Shown here: piece after piece, positions 10,673-30,240 of the stretch | How the letters are laid out: the number at the start of each line of letters is the position of its first letter | Numbering within the stretch: the stretch's first letter is position 1 | Source: Paenibacillaceae bacterium | Lineage (GTDB): Bacteria; Bacillota; Clostridia; Lachnospirales; Lachnospiraceae | Assembly: GCA_015057705.1 (NCBI GenBank) | Contig: SVDU01000002.1 | Coordinates: forward strand, 124,001 to 188,000 | DNA length: 64,000 bases | Reading direction: 5' to 3' | Made by a program: the position numbers and the translations under genes | The notes under the pieces: generated by a model | What the model was told of the DNA's origin: nothing | Database searches by the model: none | What the model saw: the letters and a program-made list of their open reading frames with translations, nothing else

Positions 10673-11315
10673 TACTATCCTTGTCCTCCCTACGTCCATT
10701 TGACTCGTTTTTGCTAAGTATTTACCTTAACATCGTTGCCATTAACATAACTATAAGTTCTTGACTTGGTCTACAAAGGTCAACCCCCTTCCATTCGTTC
10801 CGCGTTTGGTCGCGTAATTACTTCTGTACTATGAGATTGTCTGACTCCCTTATATGCTGGTATAATTTCGAATTACTCTTATATATATCAGCCCTTTTGG
10901 TAGATATAAGGGTCTCACAGGGTCATCACACCTTCCCTTTTAACATACCAAGCACCTTCACATGACAACCTCCATTTACTCGACTGGTTCTTCTGGGTAA
11001 ATGATTTAGATTTCCCGACTTTTCGCACGGTCATCAACTTGCCCTGCCGCATCATGTGCTTCACTTTTCGTTTCGGTCTGCTAAACCGTCTACGGGTCTC
11101 TCGACTTTCCGCATCTCCTTCAGACAACATCTTACGATGATGCCCTAGATTAGACTTCCCGATTTGCACCAGTGCTCACGGGTGGAGATTTTCACTCCAG
11201 AGAAATCTTGCTTTCGGAACTCTTGATTCGTGTTTGCCTCCGCATCGTAATCGCTATTCTTAATATACAAGATAGTCCTGGCCAAAGCCAGGACTGGTGC
11301 GACTGCCTGTCGCAC

Positions 11316-12917: not shown

Positions 12918-13658
12918 ATGTTAAGAATAGCAATTTGTGATGACGACGTTCTGTTTACAGGAATGTTAGAAAATTTAATCAAAGAAGAAGCTTTGGCAAA
13001 CGGTATTGAAATCGAAGTTGACGTGTTTTTTGATGGATCCATGCTGACAAAATACGTACATCTTGGTAACTTATTTGACCTGATCTTTCTTGATATAGAA
13101 ATGTCACAGCAAAACGGAATTGAGGCAGCACGCCACATCAGAGAGGTTGATAAGACTGCACTATTAATTTATATTTCCGGATATGAGCAGTATTTAAAAG
13201 AATTATTTGAGGTGGAGCCGTTTCGTTTTCTTTCCAAGCCACTTGATACGGAGAAGTTCTCCCGGTATTTCAAAGAAGCATATGAACGGATCAATGAAAA
13301 TAACGTCTATTTTCAATTTAATTTTAACAAAGAGATTAAAAAGGTAGCCTTAAAGGATGTGGTCTACTTTGAAAGCCGCAACCGGATTGTATATATCTAT
13401 TTAAAGGATGGGAGAGAGGAGTTTTTTTATGGAAAGCTTAACGATGTGGAAAATGAGTTAGCAGGAAACAAACAGCGGTACCTGCGGATACACCAATCCT
13501 ATCTTGTTAATTATGATTACGTCAGTACCATGAATTTTTCCAGTCTTGTAATTGAAAACGGTGGGAAGTCAACCACACTGCAGATCAGCGAAGACAGGCA
13601 GAAGAAAATCCGGAAGCAGTTATGTGATCTGGCCAGTAAGAAAGCGGGGGGGAAATAG
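12918..13658 (+). CDS. LytTR-family response regulator, AgrA-like
   Basis: This 246-residue protein has a receiver domain (acidic residues near the N-terminus, phospho-acceptor Asp59 in LIFLDIEM) and a C-terminal LytTR DNA-binding domain (about residues 140-240, with YLRIHQSYLVN). It is the expected output of the kinase encoded one base downstream. LytTR regulators of this kind bind pairs of short direct repeats near agr promoters; no convincing pair was identified by eye here. Confidence 0.92.
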   Translation: MLRIAICDDDVLFTGMLENLIKEEALANGIEIEVDVFFDGSMLTKYVHLGNLFDLIFLDIEMSQQNGIEAARHIREVDKTALLIYISGYEQYLKELFEVEPFRFLSKPLDTEKFSRYFKEAYERINENNVYFQFNFNKEIKKVALKDVVYFESRNRIVYIYLKDGREEFFYGKLNDVENELAGNKQRYLRIHQSYLVNYDYVSTMNFSSLVIENGGKSTTLQISEDRQKKIRKQLCDLASKKAGGK

Positions 13659-13659
13659 T

Positions 13660-14958
13660 ATGAAAATTCTTTCAACAACCGTTGTCAGTCCTTTTCTTTC
13701 ACTTTTTTATATTTTAGTCATACGGAAATGCATCAATGCGTTTTTTGCGCCTTCGTGGAAAAAAACCACAACGTATTTAATCTGGATCGCGTATTATTTC
13801 TTTCAGTTATTTCTGGGCATTGGAAGTGGGATTCCTCCAGCACTGACCCTTTTACTTAACATGGTCTTTGTCTTTCTCGCAACCAGTATTTCTTATTCAG
13901 AAAGTTATAAAAAATGTGCCTTATTCTCTTTTTTGATCTGTGCAATCTGGATGCTTGTGGAAATTATCATACATATGATCTTAAATATGATGAATTTAGA
14001 TGATAAAGCCGGTCTCTCAGGAGCCATTATCTCAAAAATCATAATGATGGTTTTTGCCATTATTACGGGACACTGCCTTCAGCATAAAAGTACAGGAGAT
14101 ATTTCCTTACGGTATATGGCGATTTTACTTATGGTTCCTGCTGGAAGTATTTACATTATGCATAACATTTTTCTCATCAGCAGCACGGCTGAGGATGAAG
14201 TTCTTTTCTCCTTTATATCCGGTATTTTACTGCTGTTTATTAACTACATTATTTTCGAAGTATTTGAGTCTCTGGCAGCAAGTTCAGAATATCAGAAAAA
14301 AACACTCCTCTATGAACAGCAATTAGAACTTTGCAGCCGCCAGGCTGAGGAACGTGAGATACAAAACACTGAAATACGTTTATTGCGCCATGACATGAAG
14401 CAGCACTTAGTCAGCATACTGGGCATGGTTAATTCCGGAAAAAATGAAGAAGCTGCCACTTATCTCACTTCTTTTTTAGAAAAGGGAACATCAAAAAAAA
14501 TTAATGAAATATCCCACAGCGGTAATATTGTAGTGGATTCTCTTGTGAATTATAAATCTTCCATAGCCCGGAAACAAAATATAGAATTCTGTACCAATAT
14601 TTTTATTCCGCCGGTAATGCCTTTTAAAAACGGAAATCTGACCATTATACTGGGAAACCTGCTGGAAAATGCCCTGGAAGCCTGCCGCCAGATGAACAGC
14701 GGACATCCAAAAATTGATCTGGAAATGTCCTATCAGAAGGGGATTCTATCCATAGTTGTCTGGAATACCTTTGAAGGGGATCGATACACAGACGGGCAGA
14801 AACATTTTCTTACCACTAAGAAAAATCCCGCCCATCATGGCCTGGGTCTGTTTTCCATTGAACAGGCGGTAGCCGCCTGTAATGGGGAGGCCATCACGAA
14901 GGTTGAGGGAAACATATTTAAAGCGGTTGTGATTTTATATCAGGAAACGGAAAAATAA
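13660..14958 (+). CDS. GHKL sensor histidine kinase, AgrC-like
   Basis: The start ATG 13660 lies one base after the regulator stop and behind a G-rich ribosome site, giving 432 residues. About six hydrophobic segments fill residues 1-205, a coiled linker follows, then the histidine motif LRHDMKQH (His244), the N box NLLENALEAC and the G box HHGLGLFSI of the GHKL ATPase. This is the topology of peptide-pheromone receptors such as AgrC. Its likely ligand is the cyclic peptide from 12105-12242. Confidence 0.92.
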   Translation: MKILSTTVVSPFLSLFYILVIRKCINAFFAPSWKKTTTYLIWIAYYFFQLFLGIGSGIPPALTLLLNMVFVFLATSISYSESYKKCALFSFLICAIWMLVEIIIHMILNMMNLDDKAGLSGAIISKIIMMVFAIITGHCLQHKSTGDISLRYMAILLMVPAGSIYIMHNIFLISSTAEDEVLFSFISGILLLFINYIIFEVFESLAASSEYQKKTLLYEQQLELCSRQAEEREIQNTEIRLLRHDMKQHLVSILGMVNSGKNEEAATYLTSFLEKGTSKKINEISHSGNIVVDSLVNYKSSIARKQNIEFCTNIFIPPVMPFKNGNLTIILGNLLENALEACRQMNSGHPKIDLEMSYQKGILSIVVWNTFEGDRYTDGQKHFLTTKKNPAHHGLGLFSIEQAVAACNGEAITKVEGNIFKAVVILYQETEK

Positions 14959-14989
14959 CAAATCATCTGGTTCAGGGGGGAATAATAAT

Positions 14990-15571
14990 ATGGAGCGGTT
15001 ATCTATTGTATTAACCAATTATATTCTTAAAAAAGAAGTGATCTCTAAAGAAGATTATGAAATTTATTTATATGGCTTTCAAAGCTTTCTGGAACTGTTT
15101 TTTAATCTGCTCTGCAGTCTCTGTATTGCGTTTTTTATTCATATGGAAGTGGAATGCCTGCTCTTCTTTTTATTGTTTATTCCTCTTCGCTCCTTTAACG
15201 GAGGACTGCATTTAAAGTCATATTTCTCATGTCTGGTTTTCTCCTGCGCCACCATGACTGTCATACTTCTGATTGTAAAATATTACAGTCTGAATGCCCC
15301 GGTTTCGTTTCTGCTGTACCTGGTTTTTATGGTACTCATTAAACTGACTGGAGCGGTTGACCATCCAAACCGGCCGGTTGACACAGACGAAAACCAGACA
15401 TTGACTCATAAAACTGACCGTACTCTGTTTATCAGTTTCCTTGCGGCATTGTGCTTTCTCTTTTTGAATTTAGAAAATTATATTTTTTTAGAGGCGCTGA
15501 TTTATCTATTAGTATTTATCACACTGATATTATCCAAAATCAGCGGCAGTAATAAACAGCAAATGGAATGA
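14990..15571 (+). CDS. agrB: AgrB-like accessory gene regulator protease
   Basis: This 193-residue membrane protein carries the AgrB signature RSFNGGLHLKSYFSC, with His74 and Cys81 spaced by seven residues exactly like the catalytic His/Cys of staphylococcal AgrB. AgrB removes the C-terminal tail of AgrD and closes the thiolactone ring. A GGGGGGAATAAT site precedes the ATG, 31 bases behind the kinase. The gene converges on the holin gene with five bases between the stops. Confidence 0.93.
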   Translation: MERLSIVLTNYILKKEVISKEDYEIYLYGFQSFLELFFNLLCSLCIAFFIHMEVECLLFFLLFIPLRSFNGGLHLKSYFSCLVFSCATMTVILLIVKYYSLNAPVSFLLYLVFMVLIKLTGAVDHPNRPVDTDENQTLTHKTDRTLFISFLAALCFLFLNLENYIFLEALIYLLVFITLILSKISGSNKQQME

Positions 15572-15576
15572 GCGTT

Positions 15577-16041
15577 TTAGTCTTTATCAATTTTCCCACG
15601 CAATTCCGTCAGGACTTTTTGTAAAAATTCCGGCATTCTGGCGCCCATTCGTCCTGCATTTTCTAAGATAGAGATTAATTCATTAATAATGAGCCAGACC
15701 GATACCAGTAAACCAAAGATTGTTTTATGCTCAAATTTAATTCCGATCTCAGTAGAAAATTTATAGATTACATAATCCGTGCTGACTGCCGCCAGAATGA
15801 TGAATATATAGCTTGCCTTTTTATAGATTCCGATCCGGCTTTTCCTGCTGTTCCAGCCATACTGATTATTATCAGGATTGTCCAGTGCTTCCTTTTTTGA
15901 TGCCAGCATCCCCGATATGTAGTCCGTAATCATAAGTATTGTCAATAAAGATATGGCTGGAAATAAAAGTCCGAATTGATCCATAATCCAGGCACTGATG
16001 ATTCCCATTGCGCTTTTTTCCAAATCCAGTTTTTTTTCCAT
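15577..16041 (-). CDS. Phage-type holin, TcdE-like family
   Basis: This 154-residue protein has three to four membrane segments (about residues 28-48, 73-93, 102-122) and a family-typical middle region (LTILMITDYISGMLASKK). It resembles the toxin-secretion/phage-lysis holin family that includes TcdE. No endolysin, tail or other phage genes are nearby. It follows a sigma factor gene by 26 bases, a pairing known for UviA/UviB and TcdR/TcdE, where the holin helps release a toxin or bacteriocin. Confidence 0.88.
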   Translation of the reverse strand: MEKKLDLEKSAMGIISAWIMDQFGLLFPAISLLTILMITDYISGMLASKKEALDNPDNNQYGWNSRKSRIGIYKKASYIFIILAAVSTDYVIYKFSTEIGIKFEHKTIFGLLVSVWLIINELISILENAGRMGARMPEFLQKVLTELRGKIDKD

Positions 16042-16067
16042 AACTGCACCTCCTAATAGTTTTTTAC

Positions 16068-16607
16068 TTATATATAATATTTTTCTTTTAACAGATTGTA
16101 AAAATTTCTTCTGACCCGGTTCACGTATTGGCGGGACACAGAGTGGCGTTCTGCAATTACTGCATCTGACTCCTCATGAAAGACAATATCCCACAGAATA
16201 ACCGCCTGTTTTCCTTCTGTCTCCAAGAGCATAGTTTTTAGATCCTCATGAAACAGCCAATCATCATAAACAGGCTGATCCATGCTGATCTCAGCAAAAA
16301 ACTCATCCTCAACAGAAGCCTCTGCGTCAAAATGCTGCTTGCTTTTTTTATACTGTTCTAAGAATTTGTTTTTTAGGGCTCTGCTTAAAAAATATACACA
16401 TTGCCCATCTTCCTTATAATATTGCATTGAATTGATGGCCTCCAGCAGACTGAGTACAAATTCCGAATGCATGTCCTCTTTTTCGTCTTTATATAACAGG
16501 CGAACGTATTTATTAATCAGTGGAGTCATTTTATCTATTATCAGTAAGAATTTTTCTTTATTACCTTTTTTTATTTCCTCAATAATTACATGAACACTTT
16601 CTCCCAT
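16068..16607 (-). CDS. Alternative sigma factor, TcdR/UviA-like
   Basis: This 179-residue protein has a sigma region 2-like N-terminal half (HSEFVLSLLEAINSMQYYKEDG, KNKFLEQYKK) and a region 4 helix-turn-helix at the C-terminus (SDAVIAERHSVSRQYVNRVRRN). Size and layout fit the small group of sigma factors that direct toxin and bacteriocin genes in Clostridia. An AGGAGGTAAGAAA site precedes the ATG. It is co-oriented with the holin immediately downstream. The identity of its target promoters is not known; a possible autoregulatory promoter is listed separately. Confidence 0.82.
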   Translation of the reverse strand: MGESVHVIIEEIKKGNKEKFLLIIDKMTPLINKYVRLLYKDEKEDMHSEFVLSLLEAINSMQYYKEDGQCVYFLSRALKNKFLEQYKKSKQHFDAEASVEDEFFAEISMDQPVYDDWLFHEDLKTMLLETEGKQAVILWDIVFHEESDAVIAERHSVSRQYVNRVRRNFYNLLKEKYYI

Positions 16608-18592: not shown

Positions 18593-19348
18593 ATGGAGCG
18601 GAAATGGTACAAAACGGCTGCTGATTTTGAAAAGGAGGATGTTATGATGCACGAGTATATGTTAAAAACAAACCACATTTCAAAAAAATTCAAAAAAACA
18701 TATGCAATTAATGATTTATCAATGTCTGTAAGAAAAAACTCTGTTTATGGATTATTAGGACCTAATGGTGCTGGTAAATCAACATTGCTGAAGATGATTA
18801 CAGGAATTATCACCCCCACTTCCGGGGAAATAATATTTGATAATCACCCCTGGAGCAGAAAAGATCTGTTAAGGATTGGTTCCCTCATTGAATCACCTCC
18901 TTTGTATGAAAATTTAACAGCATTTGAAAATTTAAAAGTTCGGGCAACTCTTTTGGGAATCTCATCCGATAAATGCATGGAGGTTTTGGAAAGAATGGAC
19001 TTAATGGATACGGAAAATAAGCAGATAGCTAATTTTTCATTGGGAATGAAGCAAAGGCTGGGGATTGCATTAGCACTTTTAAATGACCCTGAATTATTAG
19101 TCTTAGATGAGCCTACCAATGGGCTTGATCCGTTCGGAATGGAAGATTTAAGGAAAATGATCCGGACATTTGCAGTATCCGGGATATCAGTCATTGTATC
19201 AAGTCATATCTTAAGCGAGATACAGCAGGTTGCCGATGACATAGGCATCCTAAATAATGGGTCACTTCTGTATCAGGATAAAATTGATGCCAATGAGAAT
19301 CTGGAACAATTGTTTATGGATATTATAAGAAAGGAGCGTGCTTCCTGA
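18593..19348 (+). CDS. Lantibiotic immunity-type ABC transporter ATPase (LanF/BcrA-like)
   Basis: The ATPase has Walker A LLGPNGAGKST, signature FSLGMKQRLGIALAL and Walker B LLVLDEPTNGLDP. Two in-frame starts, ATG 18593 and ATG 18644, each have a near-perfect AAGGAGG site; family members usually begin close to the second, so 234 residues may be the real length. It is followed without gap by two permease genes, the order lanF-lanE-lanG that expels the producer's own lantibiotic from the membrane. Confidence 0.9.
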   Translation: MERKWYKTAADFEKEDVMMHEYMLKTNHISKKFKKTYAINDLSMSVRKNSVYGLLGPNGAGKSTLLKMITGIITPTSGEIIFDNHPWSRKDLLRIGSLIESPPLYENLTAFENLKVRATLLGISSDKCMEVLERMDLMDTENKQIANFSLGMKQRLGIALALLNDPELLVLDEPTNGLDPFGMEDLRKMIRTFAVSGISVIVSSHILSEIQQVADDIGILNNGSLLYQDKIDANENLEQLFMDIIRKERAS

Positions 19349-20109
19349 TGTTACAAACCTATCTGGCAGCCGAAAACTTAAAATTTAAACGAACCCTGTT
19401 TCGGAAACTTATTTTATACATTCCGGCAGCCTTAATTTTAATAGCAGTTATATTTTTATCTGTGGGGATTGGTTTAGGTGGTTTTTCAGCCTCCATCGTC
19501 TGTAATTGGTGTGTGCCCATTGCATCTTTATCTATTGTGATATTATGCCACTTAGTAAATAATAAGGAACAAAAACACAATTACCGGACTATATACAGCT
19601 TGCCTATAGACTTGAAAAATACATTTATTTCTAAAACAATTTTAATAGCACTTAATCTTTTGCTGATATCATTATTACTTTCATTGATATCTATTATTTC
19701 AGAGTATATGATGTCAGGTGTCTTAAGTGCATTTAAACATACCGGATCTTATGTTTTAGGATACTGCTTATTATGGGTAACTTTATTATGGCAGATCCCT
19801 TTCTGCCTGTTTTTGGATCAAAAGGCCGGATTCGTTGGTTCTATGATTATTAACCTGATTTTTACTGGACTTGGTGGTTTGTTTCTTTCTCTTTCGCCTA
19901 TATTTTGGTTTATTCCATATAGCTGGACCGCCAGATTTATGATTTCCTTATTCGGAGTATTGCCAAATGGATTATTAGTACAGGGAGGTTCAAGACAGAT
20001 TCTGAGTTTGGGTCAGAGTTCACTGCTGGTGGTAGTAAGCATGCTCACTGCAGTGGTTCTTACATTTTTATTTGCACACTGGTACAGAGGGCGGGTGTAT
20101 CGAAATTGA
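19348..20109 (+). CDS. Lantibiotic immunity ABC transporter permease (LanE/MutE-like)
   Basis: This 253-residue protein has six hydrophobic segments and resembles the ABC-2-type permeases of lantibiotic self-protection transporters. Its ATG overlaps the ATPase stop by one base, implying coupled translation. It would form a dimeric channel with the next permease. Substrate is inferred from the lanthipeptide genes at 22992-29452. Confidence 0.85.
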   Translation: MLQTYLAAENLKFKRTLFRKLILYIPAALILIAVIFLSVGIGLGGFSASIVCNWCVPIASLSIVILCHLVNNKEQKHNYRTIYSLPIDLKNTFISKTILIALNLLLISLLLSLISIISEYMMSGVLSAFKHTGSYVLGYCLLWVTLLWQIPFCLFLDQKAGFVGSMIINLIFTGLGGLFLSLSPIFWFIPYSWTARFMISLFGVLPNGLLVQGGSRQILSLGQSSLLVVVSMLTAVVLTFLFAHWYRGRVYRN

Positions 20110-20837
20110 CAATTGCAAGAGAGTTTTTCTCTAACTTTACAAAAATAAAACGAACTCCGCTTTTACTATTACATCTGCTGCCTCCTGTGATAATCACAAC
20201 CTTATTTTTAGTTTATTACAATTCTGGTGGATACCGCCTTTTTTCTGATGTTCGGCAGTTTTTCATTTTGTTACAAATCTGCTATCCTATGTTTGTTAGT
20301 TTTGTTGTACCAATTTTTATTAATTTAGACCGAAATATCAGCAATGTTCAAAATGCTCTGGGGATTGTGGGATCAAGAAGAAGTGCTTATCTTGGTAAAT
20401 TATTGTTTCTGCTGTTCCTGTCTGCCACAAGTATCATACTATACGAGCTATGCTTCTATATTGGAGTGAATTTTTTTCTAAATATGAACGTTATGGACTT
20501 TGATTCCTATATTTTCGTATTCTGCTCTTTTTTATTAAGTAACTTGTTTTTATATTTTATACATGTACCAATTGCATTTAAATTTGGTTTCAGTGTCTCC
20601 GTTTTATCAGGAATAGCAGGTACAATTTTAGCCGGTTACTATGAAAATTACATTGGTGATAAAATCTGGCCGGCTATTCCCTGGGAATGGGGTATACGGT
20701 TTTTAAAAGATTATTTTGACCTGACCAGTGGATCGGTTATTCCTGGAGTGATTTCTCTGATTATTATTACTTCGGTTGTTCTGGTTCTCACAATATTATG
20801 GTATAGTAGATGGGAAGGCAGAATTATACAAGAGTAA
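20106..20837 (+). CDS. Lantibiotic immunity ABC transporter permease (LanG/MutG-like)
   Basis: This 243-residue protein also has about six membrane segments. Its TTG start at 20106 overlaps the end of the previous gene by four bases and has only a weak ribosome site, so translation is probably coupled. With the LanF- and LanE-like proteins it completes an ABC-2 exporter of the nisin/subtilin immunity type. Confidence 0.83.
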   Translation: MTIAREFFSNFTKIKRTPLLLLHLLPPVIITTLFLVYYNSGGYRLFSDVRQFFILLQICYPMFVSFVVPIFINLDRNISNVQNALGIVGSRRSAYLGKLLFLLFLSATSIILYELCFYIGVNFFLNMNVMDFDSYIFVFCSFLLSNLFLYFIHVPIAFKFGFSVSVLSGIAGTILAGYYENYIGDKIWPAIPWEWGIRFLKDYFDLTSGSVIPGVISLIIITSVVLVLTILWYSRWEGRIIQE

Positions 20838-20854
20838 GATTAGGAGGATAGTCT

Positions 20855-21529
20855 ATGCCAAAACTGTTAGTCATCGACGATGACCTGGATATGCTGGCTC
20901 TGGTACGCACTGCTCTGGAAAAAGAAGGTTACCAGGTGGACACTGAAGCAAATGCAGCCTCCTTACAGCCCGCCAGATGCCGATTATACGATCTTTTGCT
21001 TCTTGACGTAATGATGCCCGGCGAGGATGGATTTTCTTTCTGCAGGCGGATCCGTACCGAAGTGGATTGCCCTATCCTGTTTTTAACCGCCAAGGCAGAA
21101 GATTCGGCTCTCGTCCAGGGCTTTGGCCTGGGAGCAGATGATTACATTAAAAAGCCTTTCAGTATTGCAGAGCTACGTGCCCGGGTAGGGGCCCATCTTC
21201 GGAGGGAAGTGCGTCAGCCTACCCACATACTTAAGCGAGGCAGCGTCCGCTTCGATATACAGGCAAAAACGGCATTTGCTGGTGAACACACACTGTCCTT
21301 TACCAAGGGCGAATATGCGATCTGTGAACATCTGGCACTTCACGCCGGACAGGTGTTTACCAAAGAACAATTATACGAAGCCGTTTTCGGCTTTGACGCA
21401 GAGGGAGATCCGTCCGCTGTTGCAGAGCACATTAAAAATATCCGTGCCAAGCTGAAAGCCCACGGCATCAGTCCTATCGATACAATCTGGGGGGTGGGTT
21501 ACAAATGGCAAAAAAACGAAGAACTGTAA
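20855..21529 (+). CDS. OmpR-family response regulator of the lantibiotic cluster (LanR-like)
   Basis: This 224-residue regulator has a receiver domain (phospho-acceptor Asp51 in LLLDVMMPG, LTAK, and the KKPF lysine) and a winged-helix DNA-binding domain (TKGEYAICEHL to GVGYKW). An AGGAGG site precedes the ATG, 17 bases after the permease gene. It overlaps the kinase gene by 25 bases. By analogy with NisR/SpaR it probably activates the minus-strand biosynthetic genes; a repeat upstream of the precursor gene is a candidate site. Confidence 0.9.
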   Translation: MPKLLVIDDDLDMLALVRTALEKEGYQVDTEANAASLQPARCRLYDLLLLDVMMPGEDGFSFCRRIRTEVDCPILFLTAKAEDSALVQGFGLGADDYIKKPFSIAELRARVGAHLRREVRQPTHILKRGSVRFDIQAKTAFAGEHTLSFTKGEYAICEHLALHAGQVFTKEQLYEAVFGFDAEGDPSAVAEHIKNIRAKLKAHGISPIDTIWGVGYKWQKNEEL

Positions 21530-22833
21530 GTCTATCCTTTGTCCTTTTACGCTTTGGCATCATCATGGTTGGCTGCATGCTATTATGCTGCCTGTTATGG
21601 TATGGATTGTTTATCCGGCTTGTAAACGCCGGCTTTTTCTATAATGCTTATACTTCCAGCGAACAGGTAGAGAAAATGCTGGCTGGTGACCCGGAAGCCT
21701 TCGTTTCTCCAGGTGATGATTTTTTGCCAGATTACGCTTTATTTGACCGGAACGGTAAAGTTCTGGAAAGCAACACCAAAGGAAGGAAACTGAAAAAACT
21801 GACCAGTCTCTTATATGAAGACACCTCTAATATGCGTGTTGCCAGACACACTTATGGAGATGGAAGCACGATAATCATTGGATATTATTTCAGATCAGAG
21901 TTTGCTAATCCTGTTCTGCGGAGTACCCTGCCCCCCTTTGAATATATGTGGCTGTCATCACTGGGCGCAGCATTGGTGCTTTGTCTGCTGTTTAACACCC
22001 TGTGGCTTCGTAAGCGTCTTGCTGCCAAGCTAAAGCTGTTTGGCGAGGTTAGCCGGAAGGTAGGTGCACAGGAACTGGATTTTACAATTCCACACGCAGG
22101 AATTCGGGAATACGATCAGGCACTTGATGCAATGGAGCATATGAGAGATGCTTTGTACAATTCCCTGTCTTCCCAGTGGGCGGCACAGCAGGAACGGGAA
22201 GCAGAAATAGCCGCGCTGGCCCATGATTTAAAAACTCCACTCACCCTGGTGGGAGGTAATGCTGAGCTGCTGCTTGATGAAGAACTCCCTGAAAGCAGTC
22301 GTAGAATGGTGGAAACAATTGCATCCAGTAATGAACGTGCCAGGCAGTATGTAACAAGTTTTCTTGAAGCCTCGGCAGGTGAGGAGGAGGCTTTTAAAAA
22401 CGCCAGCCTGAGCGCTCTGTTTGAACAACTGCTTTTTAACACTACGGCTATTGCAGAAGCAAGGGGCGTATGCATGAAAGTCCAGAACAGCCTTAACGGT
22501 TCAGCAAACGTTCAAAAAGATCGTCTGCTTCGTGCCCTTGGAAATTTAGTACAAAATGCCATAGAACATTCACCAGTTGGTGGAAACGTATATTTGACAG
22601 GGAGTATGGCAGATGGCGGCTGGCAGGTGACTGTATGTGATGATGGCCCTGGATTTAGTAAGGCGGCTTTACAACATGCAACGGAACGACTGTGGCGTGG
22701 AGATACCGCCCGTGGTGCAGACGGCCATAATGGTCTCGGTCTCTGGTTTGCCGCACAGGTAGTCAAAACCCACGAAGGTCAGCTTTATCTAAGTAACAGT
22801 AAGTCCGGAGGGGTTGTTACAATTAAATTCTGA
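21505..22833 (+). CDS. Sensor histidine kinase of the lantibiotic cluster (LanK-like)
   Basis: This 442-residue kinase has two membrane segments (about residues 10-35 and 150-170) enclosing a roughly 115-residue extracellular domain, then a HAMP-like linker, the histidine box LAHDLKTPLTLVGG and ATPase boxes NLVQNAIEHS, DDGPGF and GLGLWFAAQ. In nisin-type systems such a kinase senses the mature peptide outside the cell. The gene ends at the convergent terminators that separate it from the cyclase gene. Confidence 0.9.
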   Translation: MAKKRRTVSLSFVLLRFGIIMVGCMLLCCLLWYGLFIRLVNAGFFYNAYTSSEQVEKMLAGDPEAFVSPGDDFLPDYALFDRNGKVLESNTKGRKLKKLTSLLYEDTSNMRVARHTYGDGSTIIIGYYFRSEFANPVLRSTLPPFEYMWLSSLGAALVLCLLFNTLWLRKRLAAKLKLFGEVSRKVGAQELDFTIPHAGIREYDQALDAMEHMRDALYNSLSSQWAAQQEREAEIAALAHDLKTPLTLVGGNAELLLDEELPESSRRMVETIASSNERARQYVTSFLEASAGEEEAFKNASLSALFEQLLFNTTAIAEARGVCMKVQNSLNGSANVQKDRLLRALGNLVQNAIEHSPVGGNVYLTGSMADGGWQVTVCDDGPGFSKAALQHATERLWRGDTARGADGHNGLGLWFAAQVVKTHEGQLYLSNSKSGGVVTIKF

Positions 22834-22884
22834 GAGGGTGTCGCAAAATCACTAAAACTAAGTGATGGAGCGATACCCTCTTTC
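22834..22884. terminator. Convergent hairpin after the kinase gene
   Basis: GAGGGTGTCGC and GCGATACCCTC pair with one wobble, with an inner ATCACT/AGTGAT stem; CTTTCC follows. It begins directly after the kinase stop. Confidence 0.65.
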
Positions 22885-22923
22885 CATAAGGGGCAAATCC
22901 CCCTAATTTCAGTAAAAAAATAA

Positions 22924-22978
22924 AGCTATTGCTCCAATAAATTATTCATCTATTTTTGCAATAGCTCTCTTTTTTACA
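22924..22978. terminator. Bidirectional terminator after the cyclase gene
   Basis: AGCTATTGC and GCAATAGCT form a 9-bp stem with a long A/T-rich loop, flanked by A-runs on the left and CTCTTTTTT on the right. It ends the minus-strand lanthipeptide operon 14 bases after the cyclase stop. Confidence 0.7.
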
Positions 22979-22991
22979 ATTATGAAATTTT

Positions 22992-24263
22992 CTATAATAA
23001 AAATATGGAATCCCATTGTGTTTTAACGGGTTGATAGCAAGATAAAATAGTCAGGATCACTCCACTGGTTCCTGTTAAGAGTCCTATTTCATCCTTATTT
23101 ACGATATGTCCTTCCTCTATTTCTGTATCTTTAAATCCAAACGGATATTGATCACTGTAGGATTCCAGTAAATGATCCATTATCTTCATATACACTTCAT
23201 AAAAGAAGTCATCATCTGTGTATTCATAGAATTTTCTGGTCAGGCAGCACAAACCAGAAAGACCGTGACAAAAAGTAGGTGAGATAACCTGCCGCATTCT
23301 TTTTAAAGATAATTTCATACTATCAATCGCAAGCTTACCCATTTCATTATTATTAAGGATCTTGGAAGCAATCAATAATGAATACGCCACACCTGGAGTA
23401 CCATAACACCACGCATCTCTGGATGGTACTGCTTCCTCCTGTTCCATCCCTAATATTTTTTGAGTTTCCCAAAAATTATCATCACTGTCTTTTATACAGC
23501 TGTTAAAAATAAATTCTGACAGATATTTTATTGCTTCCAGCTGGTCTTGTACATATATTCCTGATTCATAGGACTTACATAATATTAAAAGTATGCCAGG
23601 TATCCCGTGTGCAACCCCTAAATTTATATATCGTATCTCTGGACTATTTTCCAGAGGAAACAATTGACTCTCATCTGACCGGATGGCAAACCGGGGGATA
23701 TTGTCGTCCCCTGCTTTACAAATATCCGTTAAATATTGCAAAATGTGCAACAAAGTCTCTTTCACATCCGGCTGGGATTTAAAATTTAACAGATAATTGG
23801 CTGTACCGGTTAATCCATACATAATATCATAAAATAGTTCGTTTAAAGGAAGTTCTTTGTACTTTATAATATTACTTTCCGCGATATCAACAATATACTC
23901 GTTTAGACTCTTTATAAACGATTGATACCGTTTCCCATGATCTGACATACAATGTGCAGCAAACCCCACTCCGCATAGCCCATCAAACAGGGAGATATCA
24001 TAGATGTTGTTTTTTCCCATATAGTCGTTTATGATCTCCAGATATTTATGGGCATAATGATCAAAACCATAATCTGGGTAATTTAATTGAAGTTCCGAAA
24101 ATAATATACATAATGCGGGATACGATACTGCTACTGAAGTACATCGATACTCAGTGTTATTTGAAGCAAATATCTTCTGAACATAATCTGTGTCGGATAA
24201 CTTTTTTGATATATTTATTATGAAATTATCCAGTTTACGTTTTTTTTCATTCGGTAAATTCAT
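22992..24263 (-). CDS. lanC: Lanthionine synthetase cyclase LanC
   Basis: This 423-residue protein is a LanC-type cyclase, which adds cysteine thiols to dehydroalanine or dehydrobutyrine to close lanthionine rings. The zinc ligands are visible: Cys in DAWCYGTPG (about residue 285) and Cys-His in PTFCHGLSG (about residue 335); GLTG- and LTGTSG-type glycine turns of the alpha-toroid repeats are also present. Length matches NisC/SpaC. A GGAGG site precedes the ATG two bases after the transporter stop. It is the last gene of the minus-strand operon. Confidence 0.95.
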   Translation of the reverse strand: MNLPNEKKRKLDNFIINISKKLSDTDYVQKIFASNNTEYRCTSVAVSYPALCILFSELQLNYPDYGFDHYAHKYLEIINDYMGKNNIYDISLFDGLCGVGFAAHCMSDHGKRYQSFIKSLNEYIVDIAESNIIKYKELPLNELFYDIMYGLTGTANYLLNFKSQPDVKETLLHILQYLTDICKAGDDNIPRFAIRSDESQLFPLENSPEIRYINLGVAHGIPGILLILCKSYESGIYVQDQLEAIKYLSEFIFNSCIKDSDDNFWETQKILGMEQEEAVPSRDAWCYGTPGVAYSLLIASKILNNNEMGKLAIDSMKLSLKRMRQVISPTFCHGLSGLCCLTRKFYEYTDDDFFYEVYMKIMDHLLESYSDQYPFGFKDTEIEEGHIVNKDEIGLLTGTSGVILTILSCYQPVKTQWDSIFLL

Positions 24264-24265
24264 AA

Positions 24266-26062
24266 TCAGCCTCCATTTTGGGGTATATCGAATTCCAGAT
24301 CGTAAATTTCTTTATAAGAGGGACATGTTTTTAATAATTCCTCATGTGTACCTTCTGCCACAATCTTTCCTTCGTCCAGATAAATTATTTTATCAGCTAA
24401 CATGACATGTGCAATTTTATGAGAAATAAATACACCTATCTTGTTTTTTGTAAGCTCAAAAAATGTGTTCATTATTTTTTTCTCACCCATTTTATCCAGC
24501 GCAGCATTGGGTTCATCTAAAATATACATTTGTGCTTTTTTGAAAAAGCACCTGGCCAGAGCAACTCTCTGCCACTGCCCTCCAGATAACTGTGTTCCAT
24601 CTGAGAACCATTTTCCCAGCTGCTGATTTAAATCAGGAGGAAGAAAGTCTATACCAGCTTCTTCCAGTGACTCTCTTATCTGGGCCTCATTATCGATTTC
24701 ATCAATGTTACCGAATCCTACATTATCCTTTACTGAAAGTTCATACTTACAGTAATCCTGGAATAAGATACCTGTTAATTTATGTAAGCTGTCAATATTA
24801 ACTTTATTTAATGGGATTCCATTCATCTTAATCATATCTTCTTCAACTAAATAATATCCCAGTAATAATTTTATTAAGGTACTTTTACCAGACCCGTTCC
24901 TACCAAACAATGCAACTCTTTGGTTTTTATTAATTTTTATATTGATATTCTGAAGAACTATTTTATCTGTATCCGGATATGCAAATGTCAGATTATTTAT
25001 CTCAATCTGATTTAAATCATTTAGTTTGTATGTTTCTTTACCATTCCCATTTCCAGGCTTATTAAGAAAATTAATCAGTTTTGACATATACAGACTGTTT
25101 TGATTTATGCTGTAAATAATATTCATAATACTGTTAAAGCTATCAAACATCATGTTAATAATTCTTAAAAGTGCAACAGCGTTACCAATTAGGATTTCAC
25201 CTGCAATTACGGAGAATATGATTAAAATCATGAGTACCGCCATACAGATCTGATCAACAAAATCAAATACAACAGATATAATCAGTCGCACCTTGGTGTT
25301 GTATAAGTTTTCATTAATCACACTTTTCTTTAAATCATTATGCCTCTTTATAATATGGCTGGCTAAATTAAAAATTTTAACTTCTTTAAATGATTGATCC
25401 TTTGTAAGTAAAAATTCATAATACCATATACTTCTGGCTTTCTTTGCATTTCTTTCTTCTGTCTGGAATTCTCTTTTACTTATGGATAAATAAAAAATTG
25501 AAAAGGCAAATGCTGGAACAATAATCAGAAATACTGACAATGGCCGCCACATCAGCATAATATAAACAGATGAAAGTATGGTAGTAATTGAAGTCACAAG
25601 TGTCAATGTGGTAGTAAAAATATTATAGGGCCTGAATCCCACCTGGGATAAAATATGCTGCAGCTGATCCTGTATGTCAGAATTTTCAAATTCCTCCAAA
25701 GACATAATGGCGCACTTATCCAATAACCTGTTAATTAATTCATAATCCAGCAGGAATTGGAATTTGGTAAACAAAAATGTTTTAATACTTATAATCATAC
25801 CTGACACTAAACTAATACCAATATAGATTGCTAATATCTTCAGGGAAAGATTTAAGTCTTTGGCTGAAATAGCATTAATCAGGCTTCCAAAAATATTTAC
25901 GGAAATTACAGGAACAATACCCGCGATAATATTAATGATAATGGTCAATACAAATATCAGTTTGCTGGCCTGGAAGAATATTTTAATGGATTTGGGAATC
26001 ACTTTTAGGGAAGATAGCATTTCCTTTACTTCTGAAGTATTTAGTATTTTAAATTTCTGCAT
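24266..26062 (-). CDS. lanT: Lanthipeptide ABC exporter LanT (no protease domain)
   Basis: The fused exporter (about 598 residues from ATG 26062; a GTG at 26074 would overlap the dehydratase gene) has six membrane helices in the first 310 residues and an ATPase with Walker A LFGRNGSGKST, signature LSGGQWQRVALAR and Walker B MYILDEPNAALD. No N-terminal C39 cysteine protease is present, as in NisT/SpaT, so the leader must be cut after export. It sits between the dehydratase and cyclase genes and would export the modified precursor. Confidence 0.93.
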   Translation of the reverse strand: MQKFKILNTSEVKEMLSSLKVIPKSIKIFFQASKLIFVLTIIINIIAGIVPVISVNIFGSLINAISAKDLNLSLKILAIYIGISLVSGMIISIKTFLFTKFQFLLDYELINRLLDKCAIMSLEEFENSDIQDQLQHILSQVGFRPYNIFTTTLTLVTSITTILSSVYIMLMWRPLSVFLIIVPAFAFSIFYLSISKREFQTEERNAKKARSIWYYEFLLTKDQSFKEVKIFNLASHIIKRHNDLKKSVINENLYNTKVRLIISVVFDFVDQICMAVLMILIIFSVIAGEILIGNAVALLRIINMMFDSFNSIMNIIYSINQNSLYMSKLINFLNKPGNGNGKETYKLNDLNQIEINNLTFAYPDTDKIVLQNINIKINKNQRVALFGRNGSGKSTLIKLLLGYYLVEEDMIKMNGIPLNKVNIDSLHKLTGILFQDYCKYELSVKDNVGFGNIDEIDNEAQIRESLEEAGIDFLPPDLNQQLGKWFSDGTQLSGGQWQRVALARCFFKKAQMYILDEPNAALDKMGEKKIMNTFFELTKNKIGVFISHKIAHVMLADKIIYLDEGKIVAEGTHEELLKTCPSYKEIYDLEFDIPQNGG

Positions 26063-26063
26063 A

Positions 26064-29000
26064 TTATTTACCACCCAATATACCTATTTTTTTTCTGTTG
26101 TAAACACAGTAGTATGTATGACGTGCTAAAGTTCTCATCTTTTTTTCCAATTCCGTATTGGGACCAAACAATCGATTCATGTTCATATGCAGCAGACTAT
26201 CAAGTATGCTTAATTTTACAGCTTTGTTATCTGGATAATTTTCTTCAATTCTATTTAAATATTCTTTCATTGACTCTTGTTTTACCGATAATATTCTTAA
26301 AATAAAATCAATCTCTGGATCTAACGTTTCATGATACAAATACTTTATAACAAAATCAACGTAGGTTTCTTTATGTTCTTTAAATTCTTTTTGATAGCTC
26401 TTGGTAGGATTTTCACAATTGAGAAATACAAACATATCCTCAAAACTTAAATTAAATGTCTGCATGTGAAAGAAAATAATCACTGATGCTAAAAGTTCAT
26501 CTGTCACTTTTATATTATGATTATTTTTTTCATAGATTATGGTTTGAATTGCTATGCTGTCTTTATAAAACACCTCATGTGCATAGTTCATTAAATCATA
26601 TCCGCCATATCTCTCCAATTCAAGCTCATAACAATTAATACTATAGTTTGAGATAAGAGATTTTTTCATAAGCTGGCTTAATGTATCTAACATTTTAGGC
26701 AATACCATTATTAATCTGGTCTTATCAGCTTTTAATCTTAATCTCAGATGTAAATCGGGATCTTTATACTGAATGAAGAAATAGCTGTCTATTTCTTTAT
26801 TATTAAGTAAATTCTGCAATGGAGCATACAACGCTTCACCTAACAGATAATCTGCGTATTCCTCAATACCGTATATTTTGAAATATAGCCACTCATCTAA
26901 GGGCTCTTTATATCTGACATTACCATAGTTCTTGGTTATATCATAATCATTGGCCTTATGGGGAGTAGCATCCTGACCTAAAATTAATGGTATTACCAAT
27001 TCACAGCAATAAGAGCTATCATTCAGTTTCACTGGATGTTCTGATTCTATATGATATCTTTCCACAACAGTTTCTGATTTTTCCAGTAATTTCTGCAACA
27101 CAGATAAACATCTGTCCTCTTTCAGATTTAACAGAAGTTTTTTGTCTGCATCTACGGCCTCCACCCAATGGGGTATATTTCTTGAATTTATGTATTCGGT
27201 AAACTTATTCTTAAATTCAGCAAAATCATAATGTTTTGTTAAACCCAGATCGCCTATTTTAATAATCCATTTTTCCTGTTCCAATACGAAGTTTTTATAT
27301 CGTATTGTTGGAAGATAGGCAAATTTCTCCAGTAAGTATTGCCATGGTTTATTATAAAACCTGATTCCATCAGAAGAAATTTCGTCAATTAATCGTAGTA
27401 TTCTGGGTTTTAACTGCGGATTAAACATATTGGTAGATGTCGGGATGATTCTTTTATTGTTAACCGCAGACTTTAAATATAATTTGTTGTTTTTAAATTC
27501 TACTAAAATTTCACTTAGCTTAAGTTTAAATGCCTGATCTTTGGAATTTGTAGTCCCAAAACTTGTTTCATAAGTGGAACCATGCATATTTCGGATCACG
27601 TTTGCGGAATATAAACTATCGGGTAAATAGGTAAATTCACAGACCTGGCATTCATCACCATAATTTTTGTTTATTTCTTCAAAAAATTTTTCTGGATTCT
27701 TCATTAAGTGAGAAAATCTTCCAAATGATTTACCTGCATAAGTAGACCCAAAAATATTACTTAAATAATAGACATCCTTTCCATTGTCTTTTACACAATT
27801 AAAGTAGATTTCCATTGATTTAGGCAACTGATCCATATCAATCTCTTCTGTTAAAAGCATTCCCATATCTGCATCGGTGATCTCAATTTCCTGACCAAGT
27901 CTTATGGAATCTACATATTTTCTTTCAAAAAACCGTATCCAGGGATTGATATATTCTCCCAAATTATTCATGCCAGTTTTTCCATCATAATGGGCCGGAA
28001 AACCGATTCCTATATCAGGATCAATGAGTTCAGTCAAAGGAACACACCTGGAGAGGCCATATTTTTCCAGAAATTTATTCTTGTAATCATTCAAACTATT
28101 GAAAGGCTCTTTGATATTAAATTGTATAAATAAATTGAGAAGCTTATTTATTTTTTTAATTTCATTTTGATTTAAATTACATTGGCTGTAGGAGAAGGAA
28201 GAATCTATGGTCAGGTAGTTTTTGGAGTTGTAGATTCTCTTCATATTTTTGAAAATCTGCGTCAGGCATTCGATGGTATTATTTACATAGCCATTGGAGT
28301 ATTCCTGTATTTCATTTTTTATGTCAACTAAGGTGTTTGTATTTATATCGTATTCCTGAAGTTTACAGATAAAGTATTCAAATTGGTCGACGATTGTTAC
28401 TGGTGGACGAAGATCGGATATTAAATAACCTTCTTTTATGAGTGATTGGATATATGTATGAAATGTGTTTTCTTCCACATTCGGATATTCTTTTTTAAGG
28501 TTTTCTATAATATCAGAATAACTTACGTAATCACCTGATATTCTTAAAACTACTTCAAATGCATTGGAGTACTTTATAGATTTTTTATTTACTTTTCCCC
28601 CATCGCTGTCTTTTGTGCAGTTAAACAAGATTGCTTTGTTTCTCTGAATAGCAACACTTTCATTAATTGTGTATCGGAGGGATTCTAAGTACTTGGATTC
28701 GTACATAAAAACCACTTGGTATAACCACTCTGAATCAATCAGAGGTTTCCTTTTTAATTCTGCACTGCTTAATTCAAATGATGTTCTGTCAGATGTAATA
28801 TTGCCAAACGCAACTGTGGAAAATAATCCAAATGGAGTACACCTTGAACAGCTTCTGCTAAAATATTTATAGATTGAATTTAACAAATAATTTGTATCCC
28901 TTGCTGTGCCATCCTCAATATAGTGCTGCATGGATTCATATAAATCTTGGCTGGCCACAAATATAGCTTCATTAAACTGATCTTTATATTCAGGAGAATC

Positions 29001-29120
29001 AAATAAAAACATAGTATGATCTATGTTATTTGCATTTTCTATATTATCTGTCAATAAATTGATTGGCAGACCCGGTGTTCTTATCATAAAGGAACCTATA
29101 TCTTTAAATAAATCTTTCAT
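26064..29120 (-). CDS. lanB: Class I lantibiotic dehydratase LanB
   Basis: This 1018-residue enzyme is full length for LanB. The N-terminal glutamylation domain carries the family motif CSRCTPFGLFSTVAFG (residues 91-106), and the C-terminal elimination domain (SpaB-C type) carries DPDLHLRLRL. LanB uses glutamyl-tRNA to activate Ser/Thr of the precursor and eliminates glutamate to give dehydroamino acids, recognising an FNLD-type leader box; the precursor here has FDLD. It starts 158 bases after the precursor stop. The GGGGG ribosome site is rather far (13 bases) from the ATG. Confidence 0.96.
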   Translation of the reverse strand: MKDLFKDIGSFMIRTPGLPINLLTDNIENANNIDHTMFLFDSPEYKDQFNEAIFVASQDLYESMQHYIEDGTARDTNYLLNSIYKYFSRSCSRCTPFGLFSTVAFGNITSDRTSFELSSAELKRKPLIDSEWLYQVVFMYESKYLESLRYTINESVAIQRNKAILFNCTKDSDGGKVNKKSIKYSNAFEVVLRISGDYVSYSDIIENLKKEYPNVEENTFHTYIQSLIKEGYLISDLRPPVTIVDQFEYFICKLQEYDINTNTLVDIKNEIQEYSNGYVNNTIECLTQIFKNMKRIYNSKNYLTIDSSFSYSQCNLNQNEIKKINKLLNLFIQFNIKEPFNSLNDYKNKFLEKYGLSRCVPLTELIDPDIGIGFPAHYDGKTGMNNLGEYINPWIRFFERKYVDSIRLGQEIEITDADMGMLLTEEIDMDQLPKSMEIYFNCVKDNGKDVYYLSNIFGSTYAGKSFGRFSHLMKNPEKFFEEINKNYGDECQVCEFTYLPDSLYSANVIRNMHGSTYETSFGTTNSKDQAFKLKLSEILVEFKNNKLYLKSAVNNKRIIPTSTNMFNPQLKPRILRLIDEISSDGIRFYNKPWQYLLEKFAYLPTIRYKNFVLEQEKWIIKIGDLGLTKHYDFAEFKNKFTEYINSRNIPHWVEAVDADKKLLLNLKEDRCLSVLQKLLEKSETVVERYHIESEHPVKLNDSSYCCELVIPLILGQDATPHKANDYDITKNYGNVRYKEPLDEWLYFKIYGIEEYADYLLGEALYAPLQNLLNNKEIDSYFFIQYKDPDLHLRLRLKADKTRLIMVLPKMLDTLSQLMKKSLISNYSINCYELELERYGGYDLMNYAHEVFYKDSIAIQTIIYEKNNHNIKVTDELLASVIIFFHMQTFNLSFEDMFVFLNCENPTKSYQKEFKEHKETYVDFVIKYLYHETLDPEIDFILRILSVKQESMKEYLNRIEENYPDNKAVKLSILDSLLHMNMNRLFGPNTELEKKMRTLARHTYYCVYNRKKIGILGGK

Positions 29121-29208
29121 ATTTTAACCGTATCCCCCTTGCTTAACTCTTGTATGCCTAACCAAAATAGAAACGTAATATCACCAGTAAATTACTTCCA
29201 CAAAATGT

Positions 29209-29252
29209 AAACGTACATGCATTTTGTGAATCTTCTAAATGCATGTACGTTT
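29209..29252 (-). promoter_or_regulatory. Long intercistronic hairpin between lanA and lanB
   Basis: A perfect 16-bp inverted repeat (29209-29224 with 29237-29252; 12-base loop) extends to about 20 bp with one wobble. Only a short TTTT follows on the minus strand. By analogy with the hairpin after nisA it probably gives partial termination or protects the precursor mRNA, so that precursor is made in excess over the enzymes. Confidence 0.7.
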
Positions 29253-29278
29253 GCATCGGGTTTAGGTTTGCATGGAAA

Positions 29279-29452
29279 TTAGTAGCATAACCATGTGTTT
29301 GTGCAGTTTCTTGTCATTCCACATTCACTTGTTCCACAGGTAGTTCCTGTTAAACAACCAGGTGTGCAATAAGCAACACTAGCAATTTTTGATTCTCCTA
29401 CATCTACTGAACCCTTGTCCATTTTAAGATCTAAATCAAAATCTTTATTCAT
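29279..29452 (-). CDS. lanA: Nisin-like class I lanthipeptide precursor
   Basis: A 57-residue frame starts at ATG 29452 behind AAAGGGGG. The leader has the LanB/LanC recognition box FDLDL (residues 5-9). Aligning with nisin places cleavage after Lys22, giving a 35-residue core. Core residues 3-14 (Ser, three residues, CTPGCLTG) match nisin's rings A and B, the lipid II pyrophosphate cage. Six Cys at core 7, 11, 17, 22, 28 and 34 pair by spacing with Ser3, Thr8, Thr13, Thr19, Thr25 and Thr31. The C-terminal half, ending WLCY, is unlike nisin or subtilin. Ring pattern and cleavage are inferences. Confidence 0.93.
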   Translation of the reverse strand: MNKDFDLDLKMDKGSVDVGESKIASVAYCTPGCLTGTTCGTSECGMTRNCTNTWLCY

Positions 29453-29547
29453 GTACTCGTCCCCCTTTCTATGTAGTTATATAATCTGTATCTGATCATA
29501 TATAGTAAACGTGAAATGAATCACTTTACTACCAACTTCATGTCTGT

Positions 29548-29576
29548 ATTATATCAAAAAATATACTCTATTTTGA
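29548..29576 (-). promoter_or_regulatory. Likely lanA promoter
   Basis: A perfect TATAAT (29548-29553) lies about 95 bases upstream of the lanA start. The region 17 bases further (29571-29576) reads TCAAAA, a poor -35, as expected for a promoter that needs an activator. Confidence 0.55.
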
Positions 29577-29579
29577 CTG

Positions 29580-29611
29580 CATGTAATTTTTACGACTTTA
29601 CATGTAATTTT
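29580..29611 (-). promoter_or_regulatory. Direct repeat, candidate response-regulator operator upstream of lanA
   Basis: AAAATTACATG occurs twice on the minus strand (29601-29611 and 29580-29590) with a 21-bp period, about two helical turns, ending three bases before the weak -35. OmpR-type activators commonly bind such in-phase direct repeats at this place. Confidence 0.55.
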
Positions 29612-29687
29612 CAATGAGGTCCATTATGAAATGAGGAGGTGAGGGGAGAGAGGGGAAGTTTATAATATCTATAATGCAAGTGCGGGC

Positions 29688-29726
29688 AAAAAAACTGCGC
29701 ATGGCTGATTAAAAAGCTGTGCGCAG
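29688..29726 (-). terminator. Rho-independent terminator
   Basis: On the minus strand CTGCGCA and TGCGCAG arms (with partial inner pairing) are followed by seven Ts, 45 bases after the stop of the gene at 29770. The rest of 29453-29769 holds the lanA leader, promoter and operator, and no gene. Confidence 0.8.
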
Positions 29727-29769
29727 AATATTGTTGAATGATACTTTGTGTTGTTTGGGAATGTCTTTA

Positions 29770-30240
29770 TCAGTCTATTTTTACAATATCAAATATAAAG
29801 GGAAACTTTTCTGCAGTTTTATTTTCGAAGTTAACTTTGTACCCAGTTCCGTCTTTGTAAAATAAACCCTGGCTTAAATCCACTTTGATGTAACACATAT
29901 TTTCATCATTTTCATTGTTATGGGCAAAATACCATAGCTCAAATACCTTAATCAGCTTTTCTCTGATTTTGAGATTTCCCTTTAATAATGGATGCCCAAT
30001 ATTTCGGGCAATTCCGGTAAAACGATACAGATCTTTACTTAATGAGACTACCGGATTATGCTCAATCTCTTTTACTTTATTAGACTTTTGTGAAGTTACA
30101 ATGTAAAATGCTCCATTATCATAAAAGGTATCAATAAACCTTACGGCCGGAATGGTATTGTTTGATGTGGCCAGTGCAAATTGATAGTCTCTTGCAAATA
30201 ATGTTTCTAAAACTCCAAGTCCTTCTTCATACGCATTCAT
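29770..30240 (-). CDS. Pyridoxamine 5'-phosphate oxidase-like flavin-binding protein
   Basis: This 156-residue protein has the split-barrel pattern of the PPOX family: an N-terminal helix, then FALATSNNTIPAVRFIDTFYDNGAFYIVTSQKSNKVKEI, where the Ser/Lys stretch usually contacts flavin phosphate. Such small clostridial members often bind FMN and reduce unknown substrates. It lies 12 bases after the DUF2200 gene in the same direction. Specific activity cannot be told. Confidence 0.8.
   Translation of the reverse strand: MNAYEEGLGVLETLFARDYQFALATSNNTIPAVRFIDTFYDNGAFYIVTSQKSNKVKEIEHNPVVSLSKDLYRFTGIARNIGHPLLKGNLKIREKLIKVFELWYFAHNNENDENMCYIKVDLSQGLFYKDGTGYKVNFENKTAEKFPFIFDIVKID

Follow-up and report, generated by a model that had tools for sequence, protein, structure and literature searches.

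Among the closest known relatives of the locus reported here are nisin and the nisin O-like peptides of Lachnospiraceae. Our locus shares with them the FDLD-type leader box, the SxxxC-TPGC-xTG front of the core and the set LanBTC, LanFEG and RK. In nisin the lipid II cage consists of rings A and B, and T13 and G14 belong to ring C. Among solved proteins, the best sequence matches to our precursor, dehydratase and cyclase are 9g05 (a precursor), 9g04 (a LanB, 580 bits) and 8byk (a LanC, 284 bits), all of which we take to be of geobacillin type. As to regulation, passages of PMC6193735 describe two LytTR systems of Streptococcus mutans, HdrRM and BrsRM, which control bacteriocin genes through 9-bp direct repeats, mostly 12 bp apart and lying just upstream of the -35 element. 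The locus described below is real and kept in its genus; its enzymes are ordinary, and its tail and wiring are unusual.

The window (the whole 64-kb stretch of DNA analysed) holds a lan cluster in which lanA-B-T-C lie on the minus strand and lanF-E-G-R-K, divergent, on the plus strand:

18593-19348, plus strand: lanF, immunity ABC ATPase (TIGR03740, 350 bits for a cut-off of 310)
19348-20109, plus strand: lanE, immunity permease (TIGR03732, 179 bits for a cut-off of 145)
20106-20837, plus strand: lanG, immunity permease (TIGR03733, 137 bits for a cut-off of 117)
20855-21529, plus strand: lanR, OmpR-type response regulator (PF00072 and PF00486)
21505-22833, plus strand: lanK, histidine kinase (PF00512 and PF02518)
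22992-24263, minus strand: lanC, cyclase, 423 aa (PF05147, 208 bits)
24266-26074, minus strand: lanT, exporter, 602 aa, with ABC membrane and ATPase parts (Pfam)
26064-29120, minus strand: lanB, dehydratase, 1018 aa (PF04738, 378 bits; PF14028, 163 bits)
29279-29452, minus strand: lanA, lantibiotic precursor, 57 aa (ORF reading and NCBIfam TIGR03731)
29387-29452, minus strand: leader of LanA, residues 1-22
29282-29386, minus strand: core of LanA, 35 aa
29279-29281, minus strand: stop codon of lanA

The 57-codon frame which a first-pass annotation had announced upstream of lanB is found at exactly 29279-29452 on the minus strand; it starts with ATG, stands 158 bp before lanB and has a plausible ribosome-binding site, AAAGGGGGA, at 29468-29460. 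Its product reads MNKDFDLDLKMDKGSVDVGESK, then IASVAYCTPGCLTGTTCGTSECGMTRNCTNTWLCY. The FDLDL leader box that had been claimed occupies residues 5-9 and, when residues are numbered from a cleavage after Lys22, the core does have S3, C7, T8, P9, G10, C11, T13 and G14. The annotation had added that these residues form the lipid II cage, which is right for those of rings A and B but not for T13 and G14, which belong to ring C. LanA passes the gallidermin/nisin family TIGR03731 of NCBIfam (45.3 bits for a cut-off of 29.3, E 6.5e-12) and falls short of the gathering score of Pfam Gallidermin PF02052 by 0.9 (20.1 bits against 21, E 0.0008). A separate LanB dehydratase and LanC cyclase, the mark of class I, adjoin lanA. 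The claim of a class I lantibiotic precursor is thus upheld by the TIGR03731 score, by the lan neighbours and by near-identical precursors (88-100%) in seven of the 25 genomes scanned in the genus, our own included, and we regard lanA as very probably such a precursor, of the gallidermin/nisin family and inside a lan cluster.

The leader ends with ESK, followed by Ile1 of the core. The same ESK-Ile stands at the same place in the precursor of G412, a genome of the same genus whose LanB lies in a distant branch, and the precursor of a third genome, G407, differs there. The G412 precursor supports a cut after Lys22, and we infer a host protease common to the G412-type and window precursors. For the dehydrated core of 35 residues, the calculated monoisotopic mass is 3500-3572 Da for 10 to 6 dehydrations.

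The cluster had also been called complete. B, T, C, FEG and RK are indeed present, and LanC carries CYGTPG and CHG, the motifs of its zinc site, but the word is too strong in the nisin sense: neither lanP nor a recognisable lanI was found. Pfam gave no protease family in the ten ORFs of 18593-30240 and ten flanking ORFs and no peptidase domain in LanT, and no LanI was recognised among the neighbouring ORFs scanned. Nisin O clusters are likewise without a leader protease, according to passages of PMC11811420. The subtilase (S8) family has 21 matches in the genome of the window, none of them tied to the leader of LanA.

The word nisin-like, used in the first-pass annotation, fits the front half of the core only (rings A/B, T13 and G14), and the tail departs from nisin. 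The residues of rings A and B (S3..C7, T8..C11, with CTPGC) are present in the window and in five of six other loci; the sixth, L. amygdalina (L022), has CTSGC (P9S), which departs from the lipid II motif, and its core has an extra Ser at 9 and at 27. The tail of LanA is TSEC-GM-TRNC-TN-TWLC, that is three TxxC boxes with a period of six residues, and not the intertwined TxTCxC of nisin rings D and E; in contrast with nisin and nisin O-like peptides, position 5 is not Ser and the net charge is 0. We compared 28 distinct cores, of which four are of Lacrimispora type and the other 24 come from elsewhere (L029 repeats a counted core and L047 runs into unrelated sequence, and both stand outside this comparison). 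TxxC boxes at 19, 25 and 31 occur in all four of the former and in none of the 24 others. Counted as K+R minus D+E, the net charge of the Lacrimispora-type cores is -1 in L. amygdalina and 0 in the remaining three; it lies between +1 and +4 in 22 of the 24 others, the last two having 0 and -3. Geobacillin-type cores (L032, L037) differ by seven Cys, closely spaced SC units and charges of +3 and +2. The nearest tail that we found belongs to Paenibacillus bouchesdurhonensis and P. pinihumi (L025, L027), with two [TS]xxC boxes six residues apart (20, 26); these cores differ in that their second box has a Ser, a third box is absent and there are three Lys, and their LanBs are 31-32% identical to ours. 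The LanBs of the other Lachnospiraceae loci outside the Lacrimispora-type group are 25-31% identical.

Two precursors met in this survey are curious in their own right. In Eubacterium plexicaudatum ASF492 (L047:10001), a nisin-type lanA frame goes on after ring B/C into unrelated, transposase-like-looking sequence, and the locus has no lanB match. In Clostridium hydrogenum (L050:9986), an odd precursor with CTPGSCWGC, an acidic tail and a net charge of -3 stands beside LanB/T/C.

From the spacing of the residues, we predict that the core forms six separate rings: S3-C7 (A), T8-C11 (B), T13-C17 (C), T19-C22, T25-C28 and T31-C34. A pairing of T13 with C22, or rings starting from T15 or T16, are possible alternatives. 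Over seven loci (the window and L017-L022), the 12 predicted ring residues are invariant while 8 of the 23 other core positions vary; Fisher's test gives p 0.03, a weak result, since these loci are closely related and the alignment was already before us when the rings were assigned. Of the varying positions, just one has a Ser, Thr or Cys in the window, namely Thr15, which can be Ser15 and is then still dehydratable. We further predict that rings A and B bind lipid II. There is only a one-residue linker after predicted ring C, no hinge of nisin length, and no net charge; hence nisin-type pores are less likely, and pore formation by this peptide seems doubtful. Such a peptide, which joins a nisin-like head for lipid II to an uncharged tail of another kind, would help to tell the binding of lipid II apart from the forming of pores.

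The first-pass annotation had suggested a possibly undescribed member. In the PMC article texts searched we found no description of it, and neither IASVAYCTPGC nor CTPGCLTG occurs in them. In the PMC passages retrieved, the only lantibiotic linked to Lacrimispora is the nisin variant RL8var, which PMC12506125, a 2025 mBio survey of nisin-like clusters, mentions by name in a Lacrimispora sp. The pattern of that survey, as given in its passages, fits 15 of the 24 other cores and none of the four of Lacrimispora type, although it served only to seed a search which was followed by an HMM step.

The same precursor is found in named records of Lacrimispora xylanisolvens (two, with strain DSM 3808 as L021), L. 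defluvii and L. amygdalina, and in two MAGs labelled Hungatella and Paenibacillaceae. The MAG titled Paenibacillaceae of L017 (SVDS01000104.1) has a lan locus which is Lacrimispora-like at 90-100% protein identity, and is probably a mislabelled bin. In a scan of 25 genomes of the genus, which is Lacrimispora by its named matches, the precursor is present at 88-100% identity in seven, our own included, and all six Cys are kept among them. Two further genomes of the genus, G412 and G407, have nisin-type precursors; their LanBs (L024 and L039) are 29-30% identical to ours and lie in the other main branch of a LanB tree of 26 rows, in which an uncultured Clostridia MAG (L023, 36%) comes closest to the Lacrimispora-type group. 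Over the family, TIGR03731 is rare, matching 2 of the 397 genomes sampled, namely our own and G363, which has three nisin-type precursors. Over the order, 10 of 392 genomes, including our own, reach E 0.01 with a Lacrimispora profile; the best after our own, G722 and G726, looked nisin-type from their scores alone, and the remaining matches looked like chance. No match was obtained for the precursor protein in a plasmid collection. A match in a viral contig (L086) was discarded as chance, being a leader-like stretch inside an open frame of 793 codons that reads as an ATPase. A second match in our own genome (C34, E 0.06) consists of a CTPGC stretch of 29 residues with 31% identity; the frame that holds it has 74 codons and lacks a leader box, and the match was rejected because this genome has only one LanB match. 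In the genomes searched, the precursor type is, judging by these profiles, confined to one genus, and it does not make a new class.

In G400, another genome of the genus, which gave no LanB match, the counterparts of the flanking orf17675 and orf29770 stand side by side, with about 110 bp separating the ends of the two matches. This means that the lan cluster, as read from this comparison, is a discrete island of about 11 kb. Both orf16812 and orf17675 are present in G400 at 62-63% and hence lie outside the island. In G411, lanFEG is present at 97-100% and the contig ends inside lanR, and the missing lanA may be an assembly gap. One could ask whether the cluster is decaying or silent and kept by recent descent only. 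The empty site of G400, the P9S change of L. amygdalina and the lanB of G419, which has nine in-frame stops beside an intact lanA (L018, CP070896.1; G419:C1:1670407-1673460), would fit with this. But a full-length LanB is intact at 92-100% in the other six of the seven genomes that bear the precursor, all the Cys and the predicted ring Ser/Thr are kept, and the box, promoter and hairpin described below have changed less than the intergenic DNA that lies farther upstream. The stops of G419 possibly reflect either a decaying copy or sequencing errors, the latter because other genes of the L018 record also match in pieces, and this lessens the weight of that genome. We consider decay very improbable.

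The intergenic regions on both sides of lanA hold the following signals:

29209-29252, minus strand: hairpin of 44 nt with 16-bp arms, between lanA and lanB, identical in seven aligned loci
29548-29553, minus strand: TATAAT, the -10 hexamer of lanA, with a spacing of exactly 26 bp from the box upstream
29580-29609, minus strand: LytTR-type box upstream of lanA, two AATTACATG repeats, 21 bp from start to start
29695-29726, minus strand: hairpin with a T-run, separating the lanA promoter from the gene that precedes lanA (alignment of seven loci)

The folding of 29140-29285 (146 nt around the hairpin between lanA and lanB) has a z of -3.2, and this hairpin is probably a read-through terminator or a stabiliser of the mRNA end. 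The hairpin at 29695-29726, which the terminator scan lists on the plus strand only, is a probable terminator of the gene before lanA. The box is present in all seven aligned loci, with one change in the L017 copy, and the layout at lanA is that of LytTR-type promoters, with 9-bp direct repeats separated by a 12-bp gap just upstream of the -35 element. It occurs once in the whole window, and none precedes lanF.

In the genome of the window, the layout of box, 26 bp and TATAAT is found at three places besides lanA. A first, looser repeat pattern had five matches in this genome against one for its control. With the refined pattern and at most two mismatches, we obtained 39 sites in 11 of the 25 genomes, against 0 for the reversed control. 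A TATAAT-like hexamer stands at 26 bp in all 31 of the 39 sites that were read, and is exactly TATAAT in 30, though most of these sites go back to a small number of orthologous promoters and are not independent. An ordinary nisin-type pore former under LanRK autoinduction, with LanK sensing the peptide and LanR, of the OmpR family, binding the direct repeats of the box, was weighed against these results. OmpR-type regulators also bind direct repeats. In addition, lanR and lanK lie within the cluster, and nisin A is autoregulated by NisRK (passages of PMC11811420). Yet the box, with its 26-bp spacing unchanged, also stands where no lanRK is near, as in G400, in which the flanks of the island are adjacent and LanB has no match, and lanF lacks it; the core, moreover, is uncharged, has no nisin-length hinge and ends in a tail which is not D/E-like. 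We find this explanation unlikely as a whole, while LanRK could act on lanA as well.

What the box heads elsewhere is of another kind. Two of the sites in our genome lie 0.8 and 2.5 kb downstream of a gene for a LytTR response regulator, G000:C29:39147-39866, which has a receiver domain and is followed by the gene of a membrane protein with about five hydrophobic segments. These two sites precede a gene which we read as lipoprotein-like (it has no Pfam match) and a VWA gene; the genes behind them on the same strand encode two proteins of the baseplate hub (Phage_GPD) and one DnaJ protein, which score above the cut-off, and FHA-like and PP2C-like proteins, which score under it. The third site precedes a frame which we read as a small membrane protein, upstream of a helicase-like gene. 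In G400, a baseplate-hub gene and a DUF4280 gene are each headed by such a site, and in G404 a site with two mismatches heads a run encoding one protein that weakly resembles Hcp, one of the baseplate-hub type and a fusion of DUF4280 with a ribonuclease. For DUF4280 proteins, a PAAR-like role in non-canonical type VI systems has been proposed (PMC5349215). Since the box heads baseplate-hub, weakly Hcp-like and DUF4280 genes, we call the C29 locus T6SS/contractile-injection-like, a name given on family matches, with sheath and tube unproven: for these, no family was above the cut-off in Pfam, PHROGs, PADLOC, NCBIfam or PDB sequences, and TssD was under it in the injection loci (E 0.009 and 0.018). 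The fusion protein of G404 (L122:9032-10363), in which DUF4280 is joined to the ribonuclease domain PF00545, looks like an injected effector. The C29 locus as a whole (L114 and L116, G000:C29:36500-64400) is a large T6SS/contractile-injection-like run in a Gram-positive genome, and many of its tested products have no Pfam match.

A second LytTR regulator is encoded in the window itself, in an agr-like locus at 12918-15571 on the plus strand, about 3 kb from lanF, which comprises the LytTR response regulator, a GHKL kinase and AgrB; no AgrD stood out in the short ORFs listed for 14900-16100. It might be this regulator (12918-13658, about 5 kb from lanF) that reads the box, which would put lanA under peptide quorum sensing. 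It is found at 88-100% in ten genomes, the same ten that have sites at no more than one mismatch, and the kinase and AgrB are at hand. The C29 regulator, however, is present at 93-100% in precisely these 10 of the 25 genomes; as both regulators occur in the same ten, which are perhaps close kin, their co-occurrence with the sites does not single out either. Against the agr-type regulator, the single box of the window leaves none before its own gene, and, of the four sites in our genome, two are no farther than 2.5 kb from the gene of the C29 regulator. Eight orthologs of the C29 regulator at 56-60% were found; in the regions of the four that were scanned, a diverged box lies near the G407 ortholog only and none was seen in those of G397, G398 and G414, a result which favours neither regulator strongly. 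Control by the agr-like regulator seems improbable to us, and the C29 regulator is the best candidate.

We incline to the view, which we infer from the shared box, that one switch serves the lantibiotic and the injection-like locus. The reading as a whole, that is a functional lantibiotic locus with six rings whose lanA is driven by a C29-type LytTR regulator that also drives the injection-like locus, is one towards which we lean slightly. LanB would dehydrate Ser and Thr of the core, LanC would close six thioether rings and LanT would export the peptide, a host protease encoded elsewhere then cutting after Lys22. Rings A and B would bind the pyrophosphate of lipid II and, given the uncharged tail, a block of cell wall synthesis without nisin-type pores would be the more likely outcome. 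LanFEG would protect the producer, its operon being read separately. lanA(BTC) would most likely be switched on by a LytTR-type response regulator; if this is the C29 regulator, it would also drive the T6SS/contractile-injection-like locus, and a diffusible and a contact weapon would be deployed together. That one LytTR regulator fires both a soluble, uncharged lipid II-binding lantibiotic with six separate rings and a T6SS/contractile-injection-like machine, a mobile island having been wired into a weapon regulon, is put forward tentatively, as a proposal a little short of an even chance.

As in HdrRM and BrsRM, a regulator gene is followed by a membrane-protein gene and the box has 9-bp repeats with a 12-bp gap (passages of PMC6193735); unlike in these systems, the Lacrimispora regulator also has a receiver domain, and its candidate targets include injection-apparatus-like genes. 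Among the PMC titles and abstract openings listed, none describes a lantibiotic of class I whose LytTR box is shared with an injection locus. The shared box offers a testable case that, in a Gram-positive anaerobe, an antibiotic that diffuses and an injection machine that needs contact are turned on jointly, and it would show how an island comes to be wired into a regulon already in place.

Two other elements of the window are worth recording. Between the agr locus and the lan island, at 15577-16607 on the minus strand, a holin-family protein (PF05105) stands beside a protein of 179 aa which looks sigma-factor-like and has no Pfam match. Further away, at 9236-10699 on the minus strand, lies a reverse-transcriptase-like ORF, presumably of the group II intron type.
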